IMG/VR virus record: IMGVR_UViG_3300020392_000011
Span: 1-64,000 of that record
Strand: one strand, 5' to 3'
DNA from: a virus
Length of the DNA stretch: 64,000 nucleotides
Shown here: positions 3,956 through 59,392 of the stretch, piece by piece
Numbering within the stretch: position 1 is the stretch's first letter
Layout of the letters: each line of letters starts with the position of its first letter
Position numbers and translations under genes: made by a program
The notes under the pieces: generated by a model
What the model saw: the letters and a program-made list of their open reading frames with translations, nothing else
Database searches by the model: none
What the model was told of the DNA's origin: nothing

Positions 3956-6900
3956 ATGGCAACAGATCACAATTTTAAAGTCAAAAATGGCCTTGATGTA
4001 GAAGGCGCAAATCTAAAAATAATCGATGGCGGAAGTGGAGCAGCACTTGTAGACGCTAGTGGTGATATTATCCTTGATGCAGATGGTGCAGATATAATTT
4101 TAAAAGATGGTGGCACTGAATTCGGTAGATTTACTCAATTAATAGGTAGTCTTGCAATTGGTGCAGGTTCGCCGGGTGGAACTTACCCGATGTTAGTTAC
4201 ATCAAACAAAGTTCTTTTCTTTAAAGATATTAACCTTGGTGATAATGAAAAAATACAATTTGGTGATGGTGCTACTGGTAATTTACATATATTCCATGAT
4301 GGAACAGATAGTTTTCTTGATGATGTAGCCGAAGGTAATTTAATACTTCGAACAAATGGCACAAGTGTTAAGATGATGACAGGCACCGAAAATATGGTTG
4401 TCGCAACTAAAGATGGTTCAGTAGATTTATATTATGATAATTCCAAAAAGTTTGAAACAACCTCAACTGGTGTACAAATTACTGGAACGCTTGATGTAGA
4501 TGTTATTAGTAATGCATCAGGTTCAGTACATTTAAACGATACACTATTTTTCCAAGATAATAGTCAAGCCGTCTTTGGTGATTCTTCAGATTTAAAATTA
4601 TTTCATAATGGTTCTAATTCTCATATACAAAATGCAACTGGGGATTTATATGTTGAAAATTTAGCTGATGATAAGGATGTAATATTTAGAAGTGATGATG
4701 GCTCAGGTGGTTTTGCAACCTATTTCTTCCTAGATGGATCCCAACATAATACAAACTTCCAAAAAGATATAATATTTGCAGATAATAAAAAAGCAATGTT
4801 TGGTGGTTCTGGCGATTTACAAATCTATCACAATGGTACAGATAGTTATATTCAAGATGCAGGAACTGGTAATCTTAATATAAAGTCTAACGGATCATTT
4901 ATAAACTTTCTAGATAATAGTAATAACTTAATGGCCTTTATGGTTCCTGGCGGGTCTGTAGGACTATATCATAATACTTCTAAGAAGTTAGAAACAAAAG
5001 CAGCAGGTGTTGAAGTTACAGGACAGCTTTCAGCTACAGGCAAAGTAGGTATTAATACCACTGATCCCGATGGTCAGGGTTATAGTTTTGCTGAAGATTT
5101 AGTTATCAGAGGTGGTAATTCAGCAAGTGATGGTGTGGGTATCACACTCAGAGGTAATGGTAAGCGATATGGAGTTATTGCTTTTGGTGATAATGCTGAT
5201 CCTAATACTGGTGAGATATTTTATGACCATACTGCTAACTCTATGACATTTAGAACAAATGACCAGCAAAATGTAATTATTGGTAGCACAGGTAATCTTA
5301 ATATAGCAAATGGTGATCTTAAGATCGGTGATACTTCAGTTATTACATCTGCTAGAAATCTTACTAATATCGGTACTATCAGTAGTGGAAATATTACAAG
5401 TACAGGGTCAATAACTTCTGGTACTAACTTAAAAACTTCAAATGGAATTATTACTTTAACACATTCAGGAAATACTCACGATTATAATATTTATGGTAGA
5501 GATAATACCTTTAGAATTCTTTGGGGCGGTGGTACAAAACTTTATGCTAAGACGGGACATAGTTTACATTTCGGTAATTACAATGGAGATCAGGGTGGAT
5601 CAAATGCTGATAATCAAGACCCAAGAATAATTGCAACAGGTGCAACTACCATTAATGGATTAGCTGTTAAGGGATTACATTTTGCGACTAATGATACAAA
5701 TAGATTTACAATAGCAGCTGATGGTAAAGCTAGCTTTAGTGAACATGTAACCTTAGATGATAATAAGCAATTAAGAATAGGTACTGGTGATGATTTAGCA
5801 ATATATCATACTGGATTTGATTCATACATAGATAATGCAAATGGTCATTTAGTAATTAGACAAACAGATAACGACAGAGATATTGTATTACAATCAGATG
5901 ATGGAAGTGGTGGAACTGCAGATTATATTAGACTAGATGGAAGCACAGGTTTAACTCAATTTGATAAAGATACTAAGCATAGTGATGGTATTAAAGCAAC
6001 ATTTGGTGCAGGTGCTGATTTACAAATTTATCACGATCCACATAATTCATTTATATTGCATAATAATTCTAATGGATATTTTGCAATTAAAAATGAAAAT
6101 GGTTCATTATTTCTACACGGTAATAGAGTCGATTTAAGAAGCTCAACTGGCAATGAAACAATGCTACAAGCATTTCATAATGGTGCAGTAAAGTTATATC
6201 ACGATGCAGTATTAAAATTAGAAACAAATGCATCTGGCATAGATGTTACTGGCTCAGTCGTTAGTGATAGTTTAAGTGTAGGTTCAGATACTGATACTAT
6301 TTCAACTTTAGGTAGAGCTAAGATTGGTGCCTTTGTTACAGACTATGCTTACTTCTCACATATTGATAATGCAACATCAACTAACTATGCGTTAAATCAA
6401 AATAGTACAGGTGCAACTTCCGTAAATGCTAAAGCTGGTGCAAGTGTATCTTTAAAAATTAATAATTCAAGTAAGCTCACAGTCGATTCTTCTGGAAATA
6501 CAACTATTGCTGGTAACCTAACAGTAAATGGTACTACAACTACTGTAAGTTCAACTAACACAACTGTTACTGATGCTTTAATCGAATTAAACTCAGGTCT
6601 TACTGGTTCTAATACAAACGACATTGGTTTTATATTTGAAAGAGGCTCAACCGGTAGTAATATGGGTATCATATTTGATGAATCGGAAGATAGCTTTGCT
6701 TTCATCAATACAGCTTCAAGTACAGGAGCTACAACAGGTAATGTTGTAATTGATGGTTACCAAAAAATAAGAGCTGGAGCAAACTCAAGATTCTCTGGTA
6801 CTTTAACGATTGGTAATAATAGTCAAACATCAGTAGGAAGTCCAAACACACATGTAGTAGTAAGTTCAAATGTAAATAATCAAAGAGTTGCATATACACT

Positions 6901-9900
6901 TAACGTAATGGAAGGCGCTAACAATAGAAGAGCTACGTTCTTCCTAGATGATAATGATGGAACATACGGATTTGATGCAACGGCTTCGTCAGGTGTACCT
7001 CGTTTTGTTATTAGAAATGCTCTGACAGAAACTTTTACAGTTAATCAGTCAGGTAGAGTTGGTATAGGTGAATCTAGCCCAGTACATAGAGTAGAAGCTA
7101 AGGGCACTGATGCTGCATTTATTGCTCATTACAGCGCGCAATCAAGAGGTGGTTTTGCCGCTTTAACAGGTCAAAGAGTAGCTTTCCTTACAACATCTAC
7201 AAATGATGATTTAGTATTTGGTAGAGCGTCTAATCCAGTAGCTTCATCCGGCTTTGTTGAAAGAATGAGAATTGACAACGGAACTGGCCATGTTGGTATA
7301 GGTACGACTTCACCAGGCAGAAAATTAGAGGTTAGTTCAAATGCTTCTGATGTTCCACAAATAAGAGCGGCATATAACGCAACTAACTTTTTAGATTTAA
7401 AACATAATTTAATAAATGCTGTATCCTCTGGTGGTAATGATACACTTCAATTACAAACTGCTGGTACAACTGGATTAACGATTAATGTTAACCAAAATGT
7501 TGGTATAGGTACAACAAGTCCCACTCATAAGTTACATACCAGTACTTCTGCTACCGGAGTTTTTATTCAGAGAGAAATCTCATCTAATGCCGCTAACCTC
7601 TCAGAGTTTAATTCTAACAGATCACTAATTATAAAAAATAGAGCGAGTGGATCCTTCCTAATGTTTGGTGGAAACGGATCAAGAACTGATATTCAAGCTA
7701 GTGATGGCGCAGGCTCACCAACTGCTAAAAACATTGCTTTAAATCCTTTCGGTGGCAACGTTGGAATTGGAACTGCAAGTCCTACTTCTTCTTTAGATGT
7801 TTTTTCAAGCGATTCTAGTATTGCTAAATTTACTAGAGATTTAACAACTGATGTTTCTTTAAATGTATCAGCAGATAATGATGGAACTATTTTGTCAACT
7901 GGTGGTGTTCATGCTTTTAGGGTCTTTACTAATAGCGCAGAAAGAATGCGTATTAATTCTTCTGGTAATGTTAGTATTGGAAGTGATGCAAATATGTCAG
8001 GAGTAAAACTAAATGTACGTAGTGGTAATATTCATGTAGGAGCATTTGGAGCTACAGGAAGTAAATTTGGAGTGCGTTATTCTTCTGATGATGGCTCAAG
8101 TCACTGGTATACATATTCCGCTACTGGTGGAGAACTTGTTTTTGGTAGAAGTGGTGTAATAGGAGATTCCGAAAAGGTTCGCTTTGATTCATCAGGTAAT
8201 GTTGGTATAGGAACAAACAATCCTATTTTAAAATTACAAGTTGTTGGAGATATATATGCTAACAATGGTTCTATGTTTATTGACAGTGGTCGAAGATTAA
8301 AATGGGGTAATTCACAACAATTTATAGAAGGCACAAATAGTGGTCCACTAGAATTCGGTGCAGGTAATGCTGTCAGAATGACAATTGCAAATGGTGGTAA
8401 TGTTGGAATCGGAACTACTTCACCTACAGCTAAATTAGATATTAGTGGTACTACTAAATTAAATGGTGGCACTTTCTCAGGAAGTATTGATACTGTAAAC
8501 GATGCAGCTTTAGTCTTACCTCAAACAAAAGTAATGTACTCTTTATCAAGTTCTGGAGAATATTTAAGAAAAATCTTCCACCATGAATCAGGTAATGGTC
8601 ATTTCATATTTGGTCAACAGGGTACAAGTTTAATTGCTGATATGCTATTCTATCCAGGTTCTTCTGGTAATATTAGATTTTACGGAAGTGGAAGTGAAGA
8701 TGTCAGGATTACTTCAGCTGGTAAAGTTGGTATAGGAACCGCTGCACCAGTAGGAACATTCCACGCAGTAGGAACTGGACATACATTCGATACATCAGAT
8801 GGTTCAGGAGTACAGATAATAAGAACGGGCAATTCTGCTCATTTACATTTATTCCCAGCATTCTCATCAGTTCCAACAATACAAGGACAGGGTGCAGGTG
8901 GATTACATTTAGGATATGATAGTGCTACAGATGGTATTAGAATAGATACAAATAATTCTGTCATACTTGGAGGAACTAGTGCTATACATTCAGCGGCTGA
9001 CTTAAGTATTTATGGAGGCTCTGGTGACTATGTTAGAATAGCTTTACAAGACCAAGACGGAACAAATCAAACTGCATTTATTGATAAATCAGGTGGTGAA
9101 TTATCTTTAGTTAGTCAAAATGGTACTTCACATGGTACATTCTCAGTAAGATCATTTAACGGTACAACAACAGCAATAAGATTAGCAGTAAATAGTGCAG
9201 GAGCAGTTACTTTTAATTCAGCATATACATTCCCAATATCTGATGGGTCTTCTGGCCAGGTATTAATATCTGATGGGTCAGGTGCTTTAAGCTTTGGAGA
9301 TGTTACAGCAAGTAATGCTGATACAGTAGATAGTTTACATGCAGCATCATTCCTTAGAAGTGATGCAGCAGATACAGGAACTGGTAATATAACACTTACT
9401 GGTACTAGTGACTTTCCACTTACAATAGGAAATGGTAGTGCAAGAAGAGCAATTAAAATTAATAGTAGCCAATGGCCTGAAGTAAGATTCTTTAATGCTG
9501 GAACAGAAAACGCAAGGATAGGTACCGCACAACAGAGTAGTAGTTATAATACATCTGCAGGTGACTTCTTTGTTTATTGCCCAAGCACAGATAAAGTGAA
9601 TTTAATGGTTCCAAAAGATGGTGGATCATTTAAAAGATTTAATGGTGCTCATACAGTTTGGGATTCAGGTAATGATGGCTCAGGTTCAGGTCTAGATGCT
9701 GATACAGTTGACGGTGTTCAAGCATCTGCATTAACAAAAACTACTGCAACCACAACTCAAAACATGAATAACTTTGATATTACTGGTGTTAATAGACTTA
9801 CATTTAATGATCCTGGAGTTACTGAAGGTATTAAGTGGGCAGGTGGTAATCAATGGCAAATATATGAATCTGGAAATGACCAAACAAATACTTCGGGTAA

Positions 9901-50293: not shown

Positions 50294-50584
50294 ATGAAAT
50301 TAGTAAGATTAGTGTCCGGCGAAGAAATTGTCGGAGATGTAGTAGAAAATAAAGATGGTAGTTATACTATCAGCAATGCATTTAATTTATTGCCAGGCGG
50401 TGAAGGTAAAATACAATTCATTCCATTTATGGCATACACAGAAGCACATGCTGGTGTAACACTTAAAGCTGAACATGTTTTATTTGCAGTTAAACCAATT
50501 GCACAATTAGTAGAACAAATCAGTAATATAAAAAGACAATTAGATAGCGGAATTGTAGTACCAGAACAGAAGATAGTAACATGA
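50294..50584 (+). CDS. LSm/Hfq-like small protein, 96 aa
   Basis: N-terminal MKLVRLVSGEEIVGDVVENK and NAFNLLPGGEGKIQFIPFM form the small beta-barrel pattern seen in marine T4-like phages and compared with LSm folds; a short helical tail follows (LVEQISNIKRQLD). Could bind RNA. Possible distant paralogue of the protein at 34647. Overlaps the next gene by 4 bases. Confidence 0.7.
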   Translation: MKLVRLVSGEEIVGDVVENKDGSYTISNAFNLLPGGEGKIQFIPFMAYTEAHAGVTLKAEHVLFAVKPIAQLVEQISNIKRQLDSGIVVPEQKIVT

Positions 50585-50982
50585 GTATAGATTGGGTAGA
50601 AGATATCCATAAGATGCAAACAAAATATAAGACTCGTGAATGGGTTGAAAATAATCCAGACAAGTTAAGAGCCTTTTTAGAGTTTAGAATAGACTTCCTA
50701 AGGGAAGAACTAGATGAAACAGAAGCTGCATTATGTAATATGGATTCAGAAGAAATCGTTGATGGTCTTATAGATCTATGCGTTGTTGCAATTGGAACAC
50801 TCGATGCATTTGACATCGATCCATATACAGCATGGGACGAAGTACTTAAAGCAAATATGAAAAAAGAAGTTGGCAAAAAATCAACAAGGCCTAATCCATT
50901 AGGTGTACCTGATTTAGTAAAGCCAGATGACTGGGAGGCTCCATCACACAAAGGTAATTATGGTAAGTTTGACAATATTTGA
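50581..50982 (+). CDS. All-alpha NTP pyrophosphohydrolase (MazG/PRA-PH-like)
   Basis: 133 residues. Metal-binding helices EFRIDFLREELDETEAAL (E-E-x-x-E) and EEIVDGLIDLCVVAIGTL (E-x-x-D) are the marks of the all-alpha NTP-PPase superfamily, which includes MazG, HisE and T4 gp56 dCTPase. The C-terminal RPNPLGVPDLVKPDDWEAP is typical of the marine phage version. It might clear dCTP/dUTP, but specificity cannot be read. The neighbouring nucleotide genes support a pool-shaping role. Confidence 0.82.
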   Translation: MSIDWVEDIHKMQTKYKTREWVENNPDKLRAFLEFRIDFLREELDETEAALCNMDSEEIVDGLIDLCVVAIGTLDAFDIDPYTAWDEVLKANMKKEVGKKSTRPNPLGVPDLVKPDDWEAPSHKGNYGKFDNI

Positions 50983-52843: not shown

Positions 52844-52872
52844 TGTACATTATTAATTAAACGTGGTATAAT
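52844..52872 (+). promoter_or_regulatory. Middle/early-class promoter
   Basis: TGTACA 52844-52849, 17-base spacer ending CGTGG, TATAAT 52867-52872. Heads the run 52897-58596 of nucleotide and DNA-modification genes. Confidence 0.85.
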
Positions 52873-52896: not shown

Positions 52897-53277
52897 ATGA
52901 AAGAATCATTAAAAGTTTTACAAGAGTGTGCTGAACTACAGACAAAAAAATCTAACGATTATCAGAATCCAAATTCTAAGATAACTCAAGCAGATTATTA
53001 TCCAAATGGTATTACTACCATTCACGACATTATGCATGCAAAAATGCTAAGAATGTTGTCTGTTATGGAAGCAATGCAATCAGATGATTATAAACCAAAC
53101 TTTGAATCACTCGAAGACTCAGGTAAAGATTTAATTAATTATACATCATTTTTCGTTGCATATTGCAGACATGGCATTCCTGGCCAAGTCAAAAACAAAG
53201 ATGTATTTAATAAACCAATAAATAAAGTACCAACAGCTGGTGCTGCAATGTATAACGTCCAGGAAGAACATGAATAA
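52897..53277 (+). CDS. Nmad1-like (DUF1599-type) protein, 126 aa
   Basis: LQECAELQTKKSNDYQNPNS and GITTIHDIMHAKMLRMLSVM resemble the nucleotide modification associated domain 1 pattern (K-x-x-DY ... K-x-x-R). The C-terminus is short and neutral. It is immediately upstream of, and overlaps, the thymidylate synthase homologue, consistent with a role in base or nucleotide modification, but the biochemical function of this family is not established. Confidence 0.65.
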   Translation: MKESLKVLQECAELQTKKSNDYQNPNSKITQADYYPNGITTIHDIMHAKMLRMLSVMEAMQSDDYKPNFESLEDSGKDLINYTSFFVAYCRHGIPGQVKNKDVFNKPINKVPTAGAAMYNVQEEHE

Positions 53278-53938
53278 TACTAAAGATATAGCTAAAATAT
53301 TTGTTAATGCTCTTAATAACGAAGAGTATGTAATCGATAAAACCGGTTGTAAAACTATTGAAATTATTGGTGCATCCTTTATTGCAGATGAACCTGCAAT
53401 ATTTGGTGAACCAAACGAAGACTATATAGAAAAAGAATTAATGTGGTACGAAAGACAATCAACTAATGTTTATGATATATACGGCCATGATAATCCACCA
53501 AAGGCTTGGCAATATTCTGCAAATAAACATGGTGAAATTAATTCTAATTATGGCCACTTAATTTATTCCAAAAAGTATTTTAAGCAATACGATAAAGTAT
53601 TTAAAGAATTGCTTTCAAATCCAGACTCAAGACGTGGCTCTATGATATATCAAAGACCAAGCATTTGGCATGAGTATAAAGAAAATGGTAAAAATGATTT
53701 TATCTGCACTAATGCTGTAACATATTATATTCGCGATAATAAATTACATTGCGTAGTTCAAATGCGTTCTAACGATGTGATATTCGGTTATCGTAATGAT
53801 TTTGCTTGGCAAGAATATGTGTTAAGAAAATTACAAGAAGACTTATACTACAATGGAATACATTGCGAATTAGGTGATATCCATTGGCAAGTACAAAACT
53901 TACATGTGTACGAGAGGCACTTTGATTTAGTCAAATGA
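53270..53938 (+). CDS. Thymidylate synthase / dCMP hydroxymethylase homologue
   Basis: 222 residues from ATG 53270 (AGGAAGAAC upstream). ThyA-fold motifs: catalytic Cys146 (DFICTNAVTYYIRDN), Arg166-Ser-Asn-Asp169 (QMRSNDVIFGYRNDFAWQEY), C-terminal HWQVQNLHVYERHFD. By ungapped comparison the residue equivalent to E. coli ThyA Asn177, which reads the uracil ring, is Asp177 here; T4 dCMP hydroxymethylase also has Asp at this place. So dCMP may be the substrate, giving hydroxymethyl- or methyl-dCMP. Plain dTMP synthesis is the alternative. Confidence 0.8.
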   Translation: MNNTKDIAKIFVNALNNEEYVIDKTGCKTIEIIGASFIADEPAIFGEPNEDYIEKELMWYERQSTNVYDIYGHDNPPKAWQYSANKHGEINSNYGHLIYSKKYFKQYDKVFKELLSNPDSRRGSMIYQRPSIWHEYKENGKNDFICTNAVTYYIRDNKLHCVVQMRSNDVIFGYRNDFAWQEYVLRKLQEDLYYNGIHCELGDIHWQVQNLHVYERHFDLVK

Positions 53939-54231
53939 GTAAAATGTTTTATGGAAAATCTGATCCTTTTGTTAATGAAGATGAAAGAGGATATGCAGAT
54001 GGCTCAATTAGAATACCAATAGGCAAAGATGTTGAAGTGTTTAAAGATGAATATGATGCTGACAAAAATATCCATTTTGTTATGTTCAAGTTTTGGAATG
54101 ACATAGCCTTAAATGTTGAACATTGTTTATATAAAATAGATTGGAATACGCACCTTTTAACATCTTATATTAAGAATTCATATTTTGAATGGGAAGAGGA
54201 TTCAGTTCAGAGGTTAAGTTTTTATGGATAA
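53935..54231 (+). CDS. Unknown protein, 98 aa
   Basis: ATGA overlap with the thymidylate synthase homologue and 8-base overlap with the deaminase gene. Acidic, aromatic-rich product (starts MSKMFYGKSDPFVNEDERGY; HFVMFKFWNDIALNVEHCLY in the middle). No motif recognised. Tight coupling between two nucleotide enzymes suggests a partner or regulator. Confidence 0.65.
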   Translation: MSKMFYGKSDPFVNEDERGYADGSIRIPIGKDVEVFKDEYDADKNIHFVMFKFWNDIALNVEHCLYKIDWNTHLLTSYIKNSYFEWEEDSVQRLSFYG

Positions 54232-54676
54232 ATGGGATAAGCGATGGTTCCAAATCGCAGAGGTAATTAGTTGGTGGTCGAAAGACCCAAGCACTAAAAT
54301 AGCAGCTATAGCTGTCAAAGACAAAAGACTTATATCAACTGGGTATAATGGATTTCCTCGTGGTATTCAAGACACCGATGAACGATGGAATAATAAAGAA
54401 GAAAAATATAGAAGAGTTGTACATGCAGAAATGAATTGTATTTACAACGCAAACTATCATAACCAATCACTAAGAGGTGCAACTATGTATATTACTGGTT
54501 TACCTGTTTGTCATGAATGTGCAAAAGGTATTATTCAAGTTGGTGTAAAAAGAGTGGTTGCAAAATATGATAGTGTACCAATGAAATGGTCAAAGAGTAA
54601 TGAGATAACTGAAAATATGTTTAAAGAGGCAGGAGTAATTTATGACAAAGTTCGATCAAAAAGAAATAGAGAATAG
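54224..54676 (+). CDS. dCMP deaminase-like enzyme
   Basis: 150 residues. Zinc deaminase motifs VVHAEMNCIYNA (H-A-E) and GLPVCHECAKGI (P-x-C-x-x-C), with the N-terminal STKIAAIAVKDKRLISTGYN and GFPRGIQD typical of deoxycytidylate deaminase. Converts dCMP to dUMP, feeding dTMP synthesis and lowering dCMP. In T4 the same enzyme (cd) works beside gp42 and td. Confidence 0.92.
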   Translation: MDKWDKRWFQIAEVISWWSKDPSTKIAAIAVKDKRLISTGYNGFPRGIQDTDERWNNKEEKYRRVVHAEMNCIYNANYHNQSLRGATMYITGLPVCHECAKGIIQVGVKRVVAKYDSVPMKWSKSNEITENMFKEAGVIYDKVRSKRNRE

Positions 54677-54938
54677 TAAAAGAATATTTAAATCAGCCAC
54701 ACCAAAATATACAATTGACTGGTATTTAAAATGGATAGCATCAGCTTTTGTTTTAGTAGCAATGTCAGTTAGAGGTGTTGAGGGTATGCAAATATATGAT
54801 TTATACCTATCCATAGTGGGTATATTTTTATGGCTGATAGTATCAGTCTTATGGAAAGACAGAGCATTAATTATGCTAAACGGAGTAGGATTAATGTTTT
54901 TATTAAGAAATATAGCAGAGGCGACAGCTGGAGGATAA
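54642..54938 (+). CDS. Membrane protein, 98 aa
   Basis: Start at ATG 54642 after CAGGAGT, overlapping the deaminase gene by 35 bases. Three hydrophobic stretches (around residues 28-45, 52-70 and 76-90) predict a small multi-pass membrane protein. Not recognised. It is not obviously part of nucleotide metabolism despite its position. Confidence 0.7.
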   Translation: MTKFDQKEIENSKRIFKSATPKYTIDWYLKWIASAFVLVAMSVRGVEGMQIYDLYLSIVGIFLWLIVSVLWKDRALIMLNGVGLMFLLRNIAEATAGG

Positions 54939-54939
54939 T

Positions 54940-55773
54940 ATGGAACATTTGATTATACCAACTTTAGGCAGAACACATAAGCAAAAGACTTATAATAATT
55001 TGCCAGATAAGTGGAAAGCAAAAGTTAAATTTACAGTTCAACCGCATGAGGTTGACGAAATGAGAGATATTTATGGCGATAAAGTTCTACCATTACCAGA
55101 GTCTATAAAAGGTTTATCACCTACACGACAATGGATATGGGATGAGTTTTATGGCACAAGACACATGGTACTTGATGACGATATGGAATACTTTAAATAT
55201 AAAGGTCCAGCACCAGAACATCTAGATACTAAATGGGAAACTCGTGATATGACGGACGAAGAGTATGACGATGCTTTTGACACATTTAATAAATGGTGTG
55301 ATGAAGAGCAAATTTATCATGGTGGTTTTTCAACATCATGGGTTGTACCAGATTTAAAATACTGGCCACATCAGAACAATGTAAGAATTATGACGAATAG
55401 TTATTTTGATTCTAAAAACTTGCCAAGAAATATCGTTTGGGATAAATTACAAACCTCACAAGATTTCCATGCAAATTTACAGCTATTAACACAAGGATTT
55501 GCTAACAGAATTACAACAAGATATAGAGTTTCTATATCAGCTACTAACGCAAAAGGCGGTTGTTCAGAATATAGAACGGTAGAATTAAGTAATCAAGTAC
55601 ACAGACAATTAGCTGAAATGTACCCAGATTATGTAAAATTAAAAACTAAAGTATTAGCTAATGGGCCATGGAAAGGTGAAGAACGAGTTACTTGTTTTAT
55701 ATCTTGGTCAAAAGCGTATAAGGATGCTATAAAAGCTAAAAATGCATCTACACTCGAGGACTTTTTAGGATGA
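54940..55773 (+). CDS. TAGT-like (DNA base) glycosyltransferase
   Basis: 277 residues. Start IIPTLGRTHKQKTYNNLPDK, then LSPTRQWIWDEFYG and HMVLDDDMEYF with a GT-A metal motif Asp79-Asp-Asp81. The IPT-x-GR...LP and T-R-x-W patterns are those of TET-associated glycosyltransferases (TAGT), which in phages sugar-modify oxidised 5-methyl pyrimidines in DNA. No TET/JBP oxygenase is seen in this window. ATGA overlap with the methyltransferase gene that follows. A glycan-acceptor GT-A enzyme is the alternative. Confidence 0.68.
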   Translation: MEHLIIPTLGRTHKQKTYNNLPDKWKAKVKFTVQPHEVDEMRDIYGDKVLPLPESIKGLSPTRQWIWDEFYGTRHMVLDDDMEYFKYKGPAPEHLDTKWETRDMTDEEYDDAFDTFNKWCDEEQIYHGGFSTSWVVPDLKYWPHQNNVRIMTNSYFDSKNLPRNIVWDKLQTSQDFHANLQLLTQGFANRITTRYRVSISATNAKGGCSEYRTVELSNQVHRQLAEMYPDYVKLKTKVLANGPWKGEERVTCFISWSKAYKDAIKAKNASTLEDFLG

Positions 55774-56987
55774 AACATGCAGGTATAGTACCACTCATTG
55801 GTGGAGAAATTTTAGCATCAGACGATGCTTATGGTAAAATACCAGAATACTTAATGACATATTCTGGATTTACAGGTAATGAAGAACATTTAGTTAAATA
55901 CTATAAGGATAAAGGGCATAATGTTCCTTATCATATACTAGATGAAAACCCTGGTATAAAACTAGAAAACGTCGACGTTGTATCGTCAGTATGTCCATGT
56001 GCTGGTTTAAGTACCTATCATAATTCACATGGTGAACAAAACGAAAATAACCAATGGATGGAAAAATCATCAGAGTATGTACTAAAACAGGTTAGGCCGA
56101 AAGTACTGTGGGGAGAGAATGCACCAGGCCTAGCTGGAAAGATAGGTGCATTCATGAGAGAGAAGTTGTACCATCTTGGCCAAGAAAATGGGTACAACTT
56201 CTCCATTTTCTTGACAAAGAGTTTATTACATGGCAATCCACAATATCGTAAAAGAACATTTTTCTTTTTTTGGCAGAAAGAACATTTTGGCGATCAAGTA
56301 CCAGTATTAAATTTCATTAAAAAGGAAAGACCTACAATACAAGAATTAATACTTAGCGTAAAAACAAATTTTCAAACTGAAATATTAAATAAAAAAACAC
56401 CAAGTAAAGATGATCCATATTATAGATTTATGCTAGAAGAAGTCATGGGCGGAATGACACATGCTGAATATTCTAAATCAGTAGCTCATGAACCTAAATC
56501 AGTTACCATTGAATCTAGGTTAATGAAAATGGGTTATAGGCATTCATTGATAGCTGAGTGGATGGATGGATTTGGAGAAGAGTTTGAAAGAGAAGCTGCC
56601 AAAGCTAGACGTAAAGATGCTAAAATTGCTAGTGGTGGTAACATAATGCTTAGAGGTACAATTATACCAGTAAGCTACATAGGAGCATTTGTAGTACATT
56701 TACCAAAAGTAGTAGCACATCCAGTTGAAGATAGATATTTAAATATCGCAGAAGCAAAAGCTATTATGGGTTTACCAGATGACCTAGAAGTTATTGATCC
56801 ACTAAAGAACTATAATCATATATGCCAAAATGTACCATTTCATACAGCTAGAGATATGGCAGTTGAAGTACAAGCTTGTCTAAATAATAAAAGAGATAAG
56901 ATAGAAACTAAATACTTATTTCAAAATAATTTAGCTCAAAAGTATGATTATACGAGAGACGAAAATAATTTGGAGGCTTTTTTATGA
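55770..56987 (+). CDS. DNA cytosine C5-methyltransferase
   Basis: 405 residues. Motif IV with catalytic Cys77 (VSSVCPCAGLSTYH), motif VI WGENAPGL (Glu), motif VIII GNPQYRKRTFFF, a target recognition region (~200-300), and motifs IX-X NIAEAKAIMGLPDDLEV and CQNVPFHTARDMA. Motif I (ILASDDAYG region) is degenerate compared with FAGxGG, so SAM binding should be checked. Transfers methyl (or possibly another C1 group) to cytosine C5. 4-base overlaps on both sides tie it to the TAGT and epimerase genes. Confidence 0.85.
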   Translation: MKHAGIVPLIGGEILASDDAYGKIPEYLMTYSGFTGNEEHLVKYYKDKGHNVPYHILDENPGIKLENVDVVSSVCPCAGLSTYHNSHGEQNENNQWMEKSSEYVLKQVRPKVLWGENAPGLAGKIGAFMREKLYHLGQENGYNFSIFLTKSLLHGNPQYRKRTFFFFWQKEHFGDQVPVLNFIKKERPTIQELILSVKTNFQTEILNKKTPSKDDPYYRFMLEEVMGGMTHAEYSKSVAHEPKSVTIESRLMKMGYRHSLIAEWMDGFGEEFEREAAKARRKDAKIASGGNIMLRGTIIPVSYIGAFVVHLPKVVAHPVEDRYLNIAEAKAIMGLPDDLEVIDPLKNYNHICQNVPFHTARDMAVEVQACLNNKRDKIETKYLFQNNLAQKYDYTRDENNLEAFL

Positions 56988-57736
56988 TGAAAAAAATATT
57001 ATTAACTGGCACACAATTCCATCGTAGAGGATTTATTGCTAATCATTTTTTAGATTTATATCGCGATAAATACGAAATTATAGAATATCAAGGAGATATT
57101 CGAAATGCTTATCAGATACAAATTTCTGATTTTGATATGGTTATACATTTAGCAGCATTAGCAGGTGTTCGTAAATCGCATGAAGAACCAGAAGAATATT
57201 GGGAAACAAATGTAGTAGCATCGCAATATTTTTTCGATGCATGTAGATTTCAAAATGTACCAATTATTTATGCATCGTCATCGTCAATATACGAATGGTG
57301 GCAATCACCTTATGCAACGACTAAATGGGCAATGGAACATATTGCAAAAGAGGTAAATTCAATTGGACTTAGGTTTCATACAGTTTACGGACCTGATAGC
57401 AGAACTGATATGTTATACGATGCTTTATTAAAAAAGGATCCAAAAATAACTTATCTTACAAATCATACACGTGATTGGACACATGTTACAGATGTATGCA
57501 CAGCTATTGAAATTTGTATTGAAAACTTTTGGGATATATCATCTAAGCATAAAGCAATAGATGTAGGTAACGGAAAGCCAGTATCAGTAGTTGATATGGC
57601 AAATAAAGTTTGGCCAGATAATAATCTACCAATCAAAGAAGTTACAGGCGAAAGAGAACATACTTGTGCAGATCCTACAATTTTAAAAGAATATGGTTGG
57701 GATCCACAGTACCACATATTAGAGGAAGAATTATGA
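56984..57736 (+). CDS. NAD-dependent nucleotide-sugar epimerase/dehydratase (SDR)
   Basis: 250 residues. Extended SDR: N-terminal ILLTGTQFHRRGFIANHFL (glycine motif with an insertion relative to G-x-x-G-x-x-G), MVIHLAALAGV, ASSSSIYE and catalytic Tyr110-x-x-x-Lys114. Later RFHTVYGPDSRTDM and DWTHVTDVC are typical of UDP-glucuronate epimerases and decarboxylases. Shorter than usual (~310-340). Next to a UDP-glucose dehydrogenase, so it probably acts on a UDP-uronate, making UDP-galacturonate or a UDP-pentose. Confidence 0.82.
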   Translation: MMKKILLTGTQFHRRGFIANHFLDLYRDKYEIIEYQGDIRNAYQIQISDFDMVIHLAALAGVRKSHEEPEEYWETNVVASQYFFDACRFQNVPIIYASSSSIYEWWQSPYATTKWAMEHIAKEVNSIGLRFHTVYGPDSRTDMLYDALLKKDPKITYLTNHTRDWTHVTDVCTAIEICIENFWDISSKHKAIDVGNGKPVSVVDMANKVWPDNNLPIKEVTGEREHTCADPTILKEYGWDPQYHILEEEL

Positions 57737-58596
57737 CAATGTTTGAAAAAAGAAGAATTAAGACTAGGATAGCCATAATAGGCCATGGCTTTGTTGGTAA
57801 AGCAGTAGATTATGGATTTAGTAACCCTAAAGTAGAAAAGAAAATATTAGATCCAATATATGGAACTACATCTGAAGATATAAAAAATCTAAAAGATTGG
57901 GGACCTAATCTTACATTTGTTTGTGTACCTACACCGATGGGAGATGATGGAGATATAGATTCATCGATACTAGATGAAGTAATGCAAGATTTAAGAGACA
58001 TTAAGACTCTAATTGTAATTAAATCTACTATCACACCATCTATAATCGATAAATATTATCAAACAAATGTAGTTTATAATCCAGAGTTCTTAACTGAAAG
58101 GTCAGCATGTGAACAATTCGTAAATCCAGAGTTTCATATATTTGGAGGAACTGAACAAGCTTGTCAAGAATTAGATGAACTATATGAAAAATATAGCTTA
58201 TGTACTCCTTGTATGACTTATTATTTAAATAAAGCGGAAGCAAGCTTTGTTAAATATGCTATTAATTCATTTTTAGCTACTAAAGTCACATTCTTTAATC
58301 AGCTATATGATGCATGCAATAGTTATGGTCATGTTAATTTTAATAAAGTAATTAAAGCTGTAGGAGCTGACGATAGAGTAAGTATATCACATACTAAAGT
58401 TCCTGGATTTGATGGTAAGCAAGGTTACGGTGGAGCGTGTTTTCCAAAAGATACATTTGCATTTTCACAATTTAGCGATAAACTAACTTTATTAAGAAAA
58501 GCTATAGAAATTAATAACGATTATCGTTCTCAATACGAAAGAGACGATAGAGAAAAAGAACAAAACATTCAATTTAACCATGTACAAAATGACTGA
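57733..58596 (+). CDS. UDP-glucose/GDP-mannose 6-dehydrogenase, short form
   Basis: 287 residues from ATG 57733 (ATGA overlap with the epimerase gene; an upstream in-frame codon at 57664 would overlap by 73 bases). N-terminal NAD-binding IAIIGHGFVGKAVDYG, TFVCVPTPMGDDGDID, VYNPEFLTER, central helix EASFVKYAINSFLATKVTFF, and catalytic Cys236 in GYGGACFPKD. Oxidises UDP-glucose to UDP-glucuronate. It ends ~50 residues after the active Cys, lacking the usual ~130-residue C-terminal sugar-nucleotide-binding domain. Confidence 0.88.
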   Translation: MTMFEKRRIKTRIAIIGHGFVGKAVDYGFSNPKVEKKILDPIYGTTSEDIKNLKDWGPNLTFVCVPTPMGDDGDIDSSILDEVMQDLRDIKTLIVIKSTITPSIIDKYYQTNVVYNPEFLTERSACEQFVNPEFHIFGGTEQACQELDELYEKYSLCTPCMTYYLNKAEASFVKYAINSFLATKVTFFNQLYDACNSYGHVNFNKVIKAVGADDRVSISHTKVPGFDGKQGYGGACFPKDTFAFSQFSDKLTLLRKAIEINNDYRSQYERDDREKEQNIQFNHVQND

Positions 58597-58609
58597 AGTA
58601 TGGTATAAT
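58581..58609 (+). promoter_or_regulatory. Middle/early-class promoter inside the dehydrogenase 3' end
   Basis: TGTACA 58581-58586, 17-base spacer with ACTGAA ending TATGG, TATAAT 58604-58609. The stop codon of the dehydrogenase gene lies within the spacer. Drives the peroxiredoxin-bS21-UvsX-gp41 run. Confidence 0.85.
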
Positions 58610-58632: not shown

Positions 58633-59136
58633 ATGAAAACAGTAGGAGAAAAATTCCCTGATTTTTCATTACAGGGAGTAGATAATTGTAACGACCTTGT
58701 CCAGATATCATTAAATAAAAATGACTGGAATGTCGTATATTTTTATCCAAAAGATTTTACATTTATTTGTCCAACTGAAATATCTGCAATGGATATTTTA
58801 AACGATGAAGCTTATGTAATTGGTTTAAGTGGAGACAATGAGTTTTGCAAATTAGCATGGAAACAATCCAACGAGCTAATCTGTGGAATAAAACATTCAC
58901 TTGCCGCAGATTGTGGCTTAGGGTTAAGTCACGCACTTGGTATTGTAAATAAAACAGATGGTGTAAGTTATAGAGCAACGTTCATCATCGATCCAAACCA
59001 AGTTATTCAACATGTGTCTGTAAATGCACTTGATACTGGTAGAAATGCAAAAGAAGTATTAAGAACATTAAAGGCACTCAAAGCTGGAGGCTTAACTGGA
59101 TGCAGTTGGGAACCAGGGGAGGATTTCGTTGCCTAA
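58633..59136 (+). CDS. AhpC/Prx-type peroxiredoxin
   Basis: 167 residues. [16 protein letters not shown] carries the peroxidatic Cys46 in the F-x-x-x-C-P-T-E motif; later [20 protein letters not shown] and a C-terminal [11 protein letters not shown] with a possible resolving Cys. Reduces peroxides. An auxiliary metabolic gene that could protect infected cells from oxidative damage. Overlaps the bS21 gene by 8 bases; ribosome site GAGGAAACAACT. Confidence 0.9.
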
Positions 59137-59392
59137 AATAGATTTAAGAGCTAGGAAAAGACATCCTAGAGATAAAAGACCAGCAAAGCCAATGCCTTTT
59201 GATGTGGCACTCAGAAAGTTTAAAAAGGCTTGCGATAGAGCAGGTATTGTTCAAGAAGTTCGTAAAAGAGAATTTTATGAAAAGCCAAACCAAAAAAGAA
59301 AAAGAAAAAAGGCCGAAGCTAGATCTCGACATCTAAAAGAGTTGAGAATTCAAAGAGCTTCAGGCTTTCCAGATAGGAGGACTAGAAGATAA
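59129..59392 (+). CDS. rpsU: Ribosomal protein bS21
   Basis: 87 residues, strongly basic. [20 protein letters not shown] and [20 protein letters not shown] are the bS21 signature; the N-terminal ~20 residues and the RRTRR tail are extensions. bS21 sits in the 30S subunit near the anti-Shine-Dalgarno and aids initiation. Start is TTG 59129 nine bases after GGGGAGGA, inside the peroxiredoxin gene. Phage-borne bS21 is known from marine phages; it may replace the host copy and favour phage messages. TAATG junction with uvsX. Confidence 0.92.

Follow-up and report, generated by a model that had tools for sequence, protein, structure and literature searches.

The locus examined here raises the question of which modified base a T4-like aquatic virus places in its DNA, which sugar the base carries and where that sugar comes from. 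The window, by which we mean the whole 64-kb stretch of DNA analysed, is part of a 68.6-kb IMG/VR record (G000) whose closest isolates by DNA polymerase are phage C48C1 (52%) and cyanophages (46-48%). A first-pass annotation had proposed that a run of genes behind a single promoter encodes a cytosine hypermodification pathway with a TAGT glycosyltransferase and its own sugar supply made from UDP-glucose, a proposal that the present analysis supports. We consider it probable, from sequence comparisons, that one operon makes uronosyl-hydroxymethylcytosine (uronosyl-hmC) DNA, a version of the T-even scheme of hmC glycosylation that supplies its own uronic acid.

Organization of the operon

Every gene of the run was found at the place claimed for it, all on the + strand. 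The features are as follows:

50581-50982, +, MazG-like pyrophosphohydrolase, upstream of the operon (PF01503, 39.8 bits)
52844-52872, +, promoter-like element TGTACA-N17-TATAAT with an extended -10 (TGG), one of 10 copies of the motif in the window
52897-53277, +, 126-aa protein matching positions 170-257 of phrog_18404, without Pfam match
53270-53938, +, dCMP hydroxymethylase, homologue of T4 gp42 (best PDB match 1b49, E=1.2e-72)
53935-54231, +, 98-aa protein without Pfam or PHROG match
54224-54676, +, dCMP deaminase (PF00383, 68.8 bits; phrog_174, E=8.6e-45)
54642-54938, +, small membrane protein, DUF6552 (PF20189, 69.2 bits)
54940-55773, +, TAGT glycosyltransferase, proposed DNA-hmC uronosyltransferase (PF20691, 54.4 bits; phrog_842, E=1.4e-36)
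55770-56987, +, C5-methyltransferase-fold protein, C5MT (PF00145, 58.7 bits; predicted model matches M.HhaI, E=5e-10)
56984-57736, +, short SDR of the UDP-glucuronate 4-epimerase type (PDB matches 6kv9 and 6zl6)
57733-58596, +, short UDP-glucose 6-dehydrogenase, UDPGDH, without C-terminal domain (PF00984, 64.2 bits; PF03721, 47 bits)
58581-58609, +, next copy of the promoter element, from a motif scan of the window, at the start of the following unit

The 4-base overlaps reported between the last four genes were all found, each with the sequence ATGA, at 55770-55773 (TAGT and C5MT), 56984-56987 (C5MT and epimerase) and 57733-57736 (epimerase and UDPGDH). The promoter placed at 52844 is one instance of TGTACA-N16-18-TATAAT, a motif enriched in the window (10 copies compared to 0.15 expected); a generic sigma-70 scan of the window, taken by itself, did not exceed chance (36 found compared to 38.6 expected). 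With the next copy of the motif (58581) positioned at its end, the run (52897-58596) probably forms one transcription unit. The motif copies span positions 22019-60469 of the window and several are found directly before replication genes. The gene order of the window is common to about 25 other IMG/VR contigs and is therefore no accident of assembly. The DUF6552 membrane protein inside the operon, which shows a weak resemblance to SemiSWEET, is absent from some relatives, none being seen in L010-L015. Downstream of the operon, an AhpC/TSA peroxiredoxin-like gene and a ribosomal protein S21-like gene (58633-59392) precede uvsX.

The predicted modified base and its precursors

The second gene of the run, annotated as a ThyA/dCMP hydroxymethylase homologue and scoring 60.7 bits with the thymidylate-synthase family, proved to be a dCMP hydroxymethylase of the T4 gp42 type. 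It belongs to the T4 gp42 clade, with about 49-58% identity to T4-type enzymes compared to 27% to RB69 ORF048c, and all 96 dereplicated relatives retain the equivalents of the catalytic Cys148 and of the dCMP-selecting Asp179. The RB69-type homologue makes 5-hydroxy-dCMP (PMC13390438). Both a thymidylate synthase and an RB69-type 5-hydroxy-dCMP synthase were ruled out as its identity by the gp42 clade, by Asp179 and by the 27% identity to RB69. The dCMP deaminase likewise held up, by the PF00383 and phrog_174 matches listed above. The modified base of the operon should be hmC, hydroxymethylated at the dCMP level. Whereas the first-pass annotation had allowed for methylated or hydroxymethylated cytosine, only the latter was retained, with the modification made as dCMP; methylated cytosine as the sugar-bearing base found no support, the C5MT-like gene accompanying the hydroxymethylase in 33 of 33 lineages (see below). 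As hydroxymethylation occurs at dCMP, no TET/JBP oxygenase is needed and its absence leaves no gap in the pathway. A TET/JBP search of G000 and 12 relatives gave no match but no control signal either, and for this reason absence of TET is not claimed.

The system resembles that of the T-even phages (T4, gp42 with alpha- and beta-GT; T2/T6, TAGT) in its gp42-type hydroxymethylase, its dCMP deaminase and its location between gp43 and uvsX, and that of T2/T6 in its TAGT-family transferase. In contrast to the T-even phages, the window has its own UDP-uronate supply and C5MT, no DNA glycosyltransferase other than TAGT (the only PF20691 match in G000) was recognised there, and gp1 and gp56 were not found. 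The search for gp1 kinase and gp56, suggested with the first-pass annotation, covered G000 and relatives of up to 137 kb, records that may be incomplete, with a positive T4 control; thymidylate kinase was not found either. The first gene of the operon had been called Nmad1-like, a label that could not be confirmed by any Pfam match. The C-terminal part of phrog_18404 matches this gene and its N-terminal part matches the MazG-like gene of the window; among 27 hydroxymethylase lineages, the two genes are present in 22 and 20, respectively. The 126-aa protein is possibly a partner of the MazG-like pyrophosphohydrolase, and the two genes may replace the gp56 dCTPase.

The proposed sugar and its transfer to DNA

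The TAGT assignment was borne out by the phrog_842 match and by a PF20691 score above the cut-off of 27.5, and the Asp motif DDD is present in 11/11. The T2/T6 TAGT family glycosylates hmC-derived bases in DNA, using glucose (PMC13216743), and the enzyme of the window is proposed to put a sugar on hmC in DNA. Because its AlphaFold model is poor (pLDDT 58), donor specificity is not readable from it. The UDP-glucose dehydrogenase, identified as such by both of its Pfam matches, keeps Cys260, Lys204, Asn208 and Asp264 in 14/14; it is 287 aa long, matches PF03721 and PF00984 only, lacks the C-terminal UDP-binding domain and is the only UDPGDH found in the near-whole relatives G001 and G002. Its neighbour, annotated as an NDP-sugar epimerase (NAD epimerase family, 78.3 bits), has UDP-glucuronate 4-epimerases as its nearest relatives and retains the residues that these use for catalysis and for binding the carboxylate. 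A single-sequence search gave MoeE5 (6kv9) as best PDB match, and the family profile gave 5u4q, deposited as a dehydratase, followed by 6zl6 of B. cereus (8e-47) and MoeE5 (7e-42), the last two being UDP-glucuronate 4-epimerases; no UDP-xylose synthase or ArnA name occurs among the 48 profile matches better than 1e-20. Numbered as in BcUGAepi, Tyr149/Lys153 and the carboxylate-binding Thr178/Arg185 are conserved in all 20 lineages; Thr280, at a site occupied by Val in UDP-xylose 4-epimerases and by Tyr in GalE (PMC12338863), is conserved in 18 of them. The SDR of the window has 250 aa compared to about 315 for a full-length extended SDR; the copies of L026, L110, L258, L269 and L291 have 310-317 aa. 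The grouping of the SDR with UDP-glucuronate 4-epimerases, together with the lack of any recognisable decarboxylase in the operon, favours the first branch of the original proposal (uronic acid or pentose) over the second. The donor made by the pair is expected to be UDP-galacturonate or UDP-glucuronate.

The linkage of the sugar genes was then compared across relatives. In L025-L028 the order is TAGT-SDR-UDPGDH-C5MT, compared to TAGT-C5MT-SDR-UDPGDH in the window; L110 and L111 carry TAGT-SDR-UDPGDH without C5MT, and in L269 a T4-type DNA alpha-glucosyltransferase (PF11440, 112 bits) is followed by SDR-UDPGDH-C5MT. L291 and L258 have the pair in reverse order, and whichever comes first, the two genes overlap (L269, L291). 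In all of these lineages, the pair is within an operon that holds the hydroxymethylase and the deaminase.

Combined, these observations are consistent with a pathway in five steps. Firstly, the gp42-type enzyme would convert dCMP into 5-hydroxymethyl-dCMP, the dCMP deaminase draining the remainder towards dUMP. Secondly, a host or phage kinase would raise 5-hydroxymethyl-dCMP to hmdCTP, to be incorporated into DNA by the phage polymerase. Thirdly, UDPGDH would oxidise UDP-glucose to UDP-glucuronate, which the SDR would convert to UDP-galacturonate. TAGT would then attach the uronic acid to the hydroxyl of hmC in DNA and, in the fifth step, the C5MT-fold partner would act on that DNA at C5, either of cytosine or of hmC. 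Homology, active-site residues and gene linkage are the basis for the first, third and fourth steps; the second and fifth steps and the exact sugar are what we infer. The shortened SDR, the missing domain of the dehydrogenase and the failure to find the gp1 and gp56 families count against this scheme.

It is rather unlikely that TAGT instead uses host UDP-glucose and puts plain glucose on hmC, with the UDP-uronate made by UDPGDH and the epimerase destined for another use, for example host surface polysaccharide. Such a division is suggested by the glucose used by the T2/T6 enzyme and by pelagimyophage sugar genes, which were interpreted as LPS-related (PMC7029224). In the available sequence of L113-L115 and L267, TAGT is present and the pair is absent, and the pair is therefore not required by TAGT; phage C48C1 has an SDR/UDPGDH pair and neither hydroxymethylase nor TAGT was found there, so that the pair can serve other ends. 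However, several arrangements place the pair within the hmC operon, beside two unrelated families of DNA glycosyltransferases, and in the window it is translationally coupled to that operon. A pentose end-product, with the SDR decarboxylating UDP-glucuronate or joining a UDP-xylose route and TAGT transferring xylose or arabinose, is quite improbable. In its favour, RB69 and Thanatos are known to carry pentosyl cytosines (PMC13390438, PMC12838424), mutation of the carboxylate site of BcUGAepi gives a primitive UDP-xylose synthase (PMC12338863), and Pro85 is replaced by Ala in the SDR, a feature shared with UDP-xylose 4-epimerases and its only residue to match those enzymes better. Arg185 and Thr178 are nevertheless invariant, Thr280 is not replaced by Val, UDP-xylose synthases are missing from the strong PDB matches and the operon has no recognised decarboxylase. 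The entire run as an LPS module was rejected, the idea being retained solely for the sugar pair.

Two known systems come close to the proposed transfer of a uronic acid by TAGT. The arabinosyl or pentosyl cytosine systems of RB69 and Thanatos also combine a phage-encoded sugar supply with an enzyme of the thymidylate-synthase family, and the RB69 module also lies between gp43 and uvsX. Unlike here, the RB69 enzyme is of the type that makes 5-hydroxy-dCMP, and the sugar enzymes of RB69 and Thanatos are a nucleotidyltransferase-phosphotransferase and a GutQ-like isomerase; neither of these is found in the operon of the window, and both are present in relatives such as L177 and XG4, the latter a cultured Pseudoalteromonas phage (vB_Psh_XG4) with a hydroxymethylase, C5MT and a pentose-type module. 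Bacillus phage SP-15 carries glucuronate on a modified DNA base (PMC5977210), as proposed here for a uronic acid, but its base is the thymine-derived dihydroxypentyluracil, with glucuronolactone linked via a phosphodiester, and not hmC. SP-15 was the only case that a literature search for uronic acids on phage DNA returned, and a sugar acid on hmC was not found in the accessible texts. If the proposal is true, these aquatic viruses, a widespread group, would contain a new DNA base, hmC bearing a negatively charged sugar, which might also give them a new means of evading restriction enzymes and CRISPR nucleases; TAGT, epimerase and dehydrogenase would form a three-gene kit that adds an acid handle to hmC DNA.

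The C5-methyltransferase-fold partner

The constant and least expected part of the operon is C5MT, which is more surprising than the sugar pathway. An IMG/VR scan anchored on C5MT matched at least 588 stretches, of which the nearest 80 were kept, giving 44 dereplicated lineages. At least 6.5 kb of upstream sequence is available for 33 of these 44 and, within this best 80 of at least 588, holds a dCMP hydroxymethylase in 33/33 and a deaminase in 31/33. When the scan was anchored on the hydroxymethylase, C5MT was found nearby on the same strand in 20 of 27 lineages. C5MT matches only 9 records of 50,697 phages, and the known T4-type hmC phages are without it. Cyanophage S-TIM54, considered as a phage with C5MT and without a dCMP enzyme, was overturned as such by the Asp at the dUMP/dCMP-deciding position (GVPLD) of a ThyA about 2 kb from its C5MT. 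In phage G, a distant relative of C5MT lies among alpha-glucosyltransferase genes. The cassette between hydroxymethylase and C5MT varies: TAGT, a 364-aa protein of family phrog_14998 in freshwater lineages (not recognisable as a T4 beta-GT), the L168 genes, which include inositol-phosphate-synthase-like and HMUDK-like genes, or the L177 module.

The annotation of this gene as a C5-cytosine methyltransferase is sound at the level of the family, with a PF00145 score above the cut-off of 22, an M.HhaI fold in the predicted model and an intact cytosine pocket (C77, E116, R160 and R162 invariant in 47/47 lineages). The roles of cofactor- and cytosine-site residues were taken from PMC12783734. Alignment of the C5MT profile to E. 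coli Dcm with hhalign was not meaningful and mafft misplaced motif I of Dcm; motifs I and II were therefore located manually, guided by the predicted strands and by the spacing of the GG. In the cofactor site, Gly-Gly and Asp60 are kept in 47/47 lineages and, by hand placement, Phe18 is replaced by V or I and Glu40 by A, G, P or V across the 47 lineages; the equivalent of Asn304 is Gln in 47/47. With motifs I and II so placed, the cofactor site appears remodelled. The best PDB profile match is CmoX, a DNA cytosine C5-carboxymethyltransferase (8yf3) that shares the C5-MTase fold. In contrast to CmoX, which has Arg350, its Cx-SAM-binding residue, at the Asn304 position, C5MT has Gln there in 47/47 lineages, and SPPC is VCPC in most; C5MT as CmoX was rejected on this Arg.

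This constant partner poses the question of what a cytosine-C5 enzyme does when the C5 of the phage's cytosines already carries a substituent. There is close to an even chance that C5MT is an ordinary SAM-dependent methylase, acting on leftover phage cytosines or on host DNA and merely carried along: it has the M.HhaI fold, its cytosine-attack residues are complete and its SAM site retains Gly-Gly and Asp60. Set against this are its association with the hydroxymethylase in both scans and the replacement, by hand placement, of the Phe18, Glu40 and Asn304 equivalents in all lineages, with which methylation is still compatible. It is unlikely, though conceivable, that the DNA carries galacturonosyl- or glucuronosyl-hmC and that C5MT is a non-methyltransferase and a core enzyme of hmC phages, which would attack C6 of hmC and alter the side chain at C5, using a different cofactor or no cofactor at all.

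Several relatives carry further genes in their hmC operons. In L168, a protein with an HMUDK_hel domain, the helical domain of 5-hmdU DNA kinase (5851-6942), adjoins UDPGDH, a glycosyltransferase and the inositol-phosphate-synthase-like gene, and a kinase acting on hmC is conceivable there. In L177, two tandem divergent C5MT genes (6778-9203) share an operon with an RB69-like sugar module and an SDR of the UDP-glucuronate-epimerase type. The hmC operons of L291 (11173-12153) and L168 (6955-7980) each encode a protein of about 330 aa that has a GDSH motif but no Pfam match.
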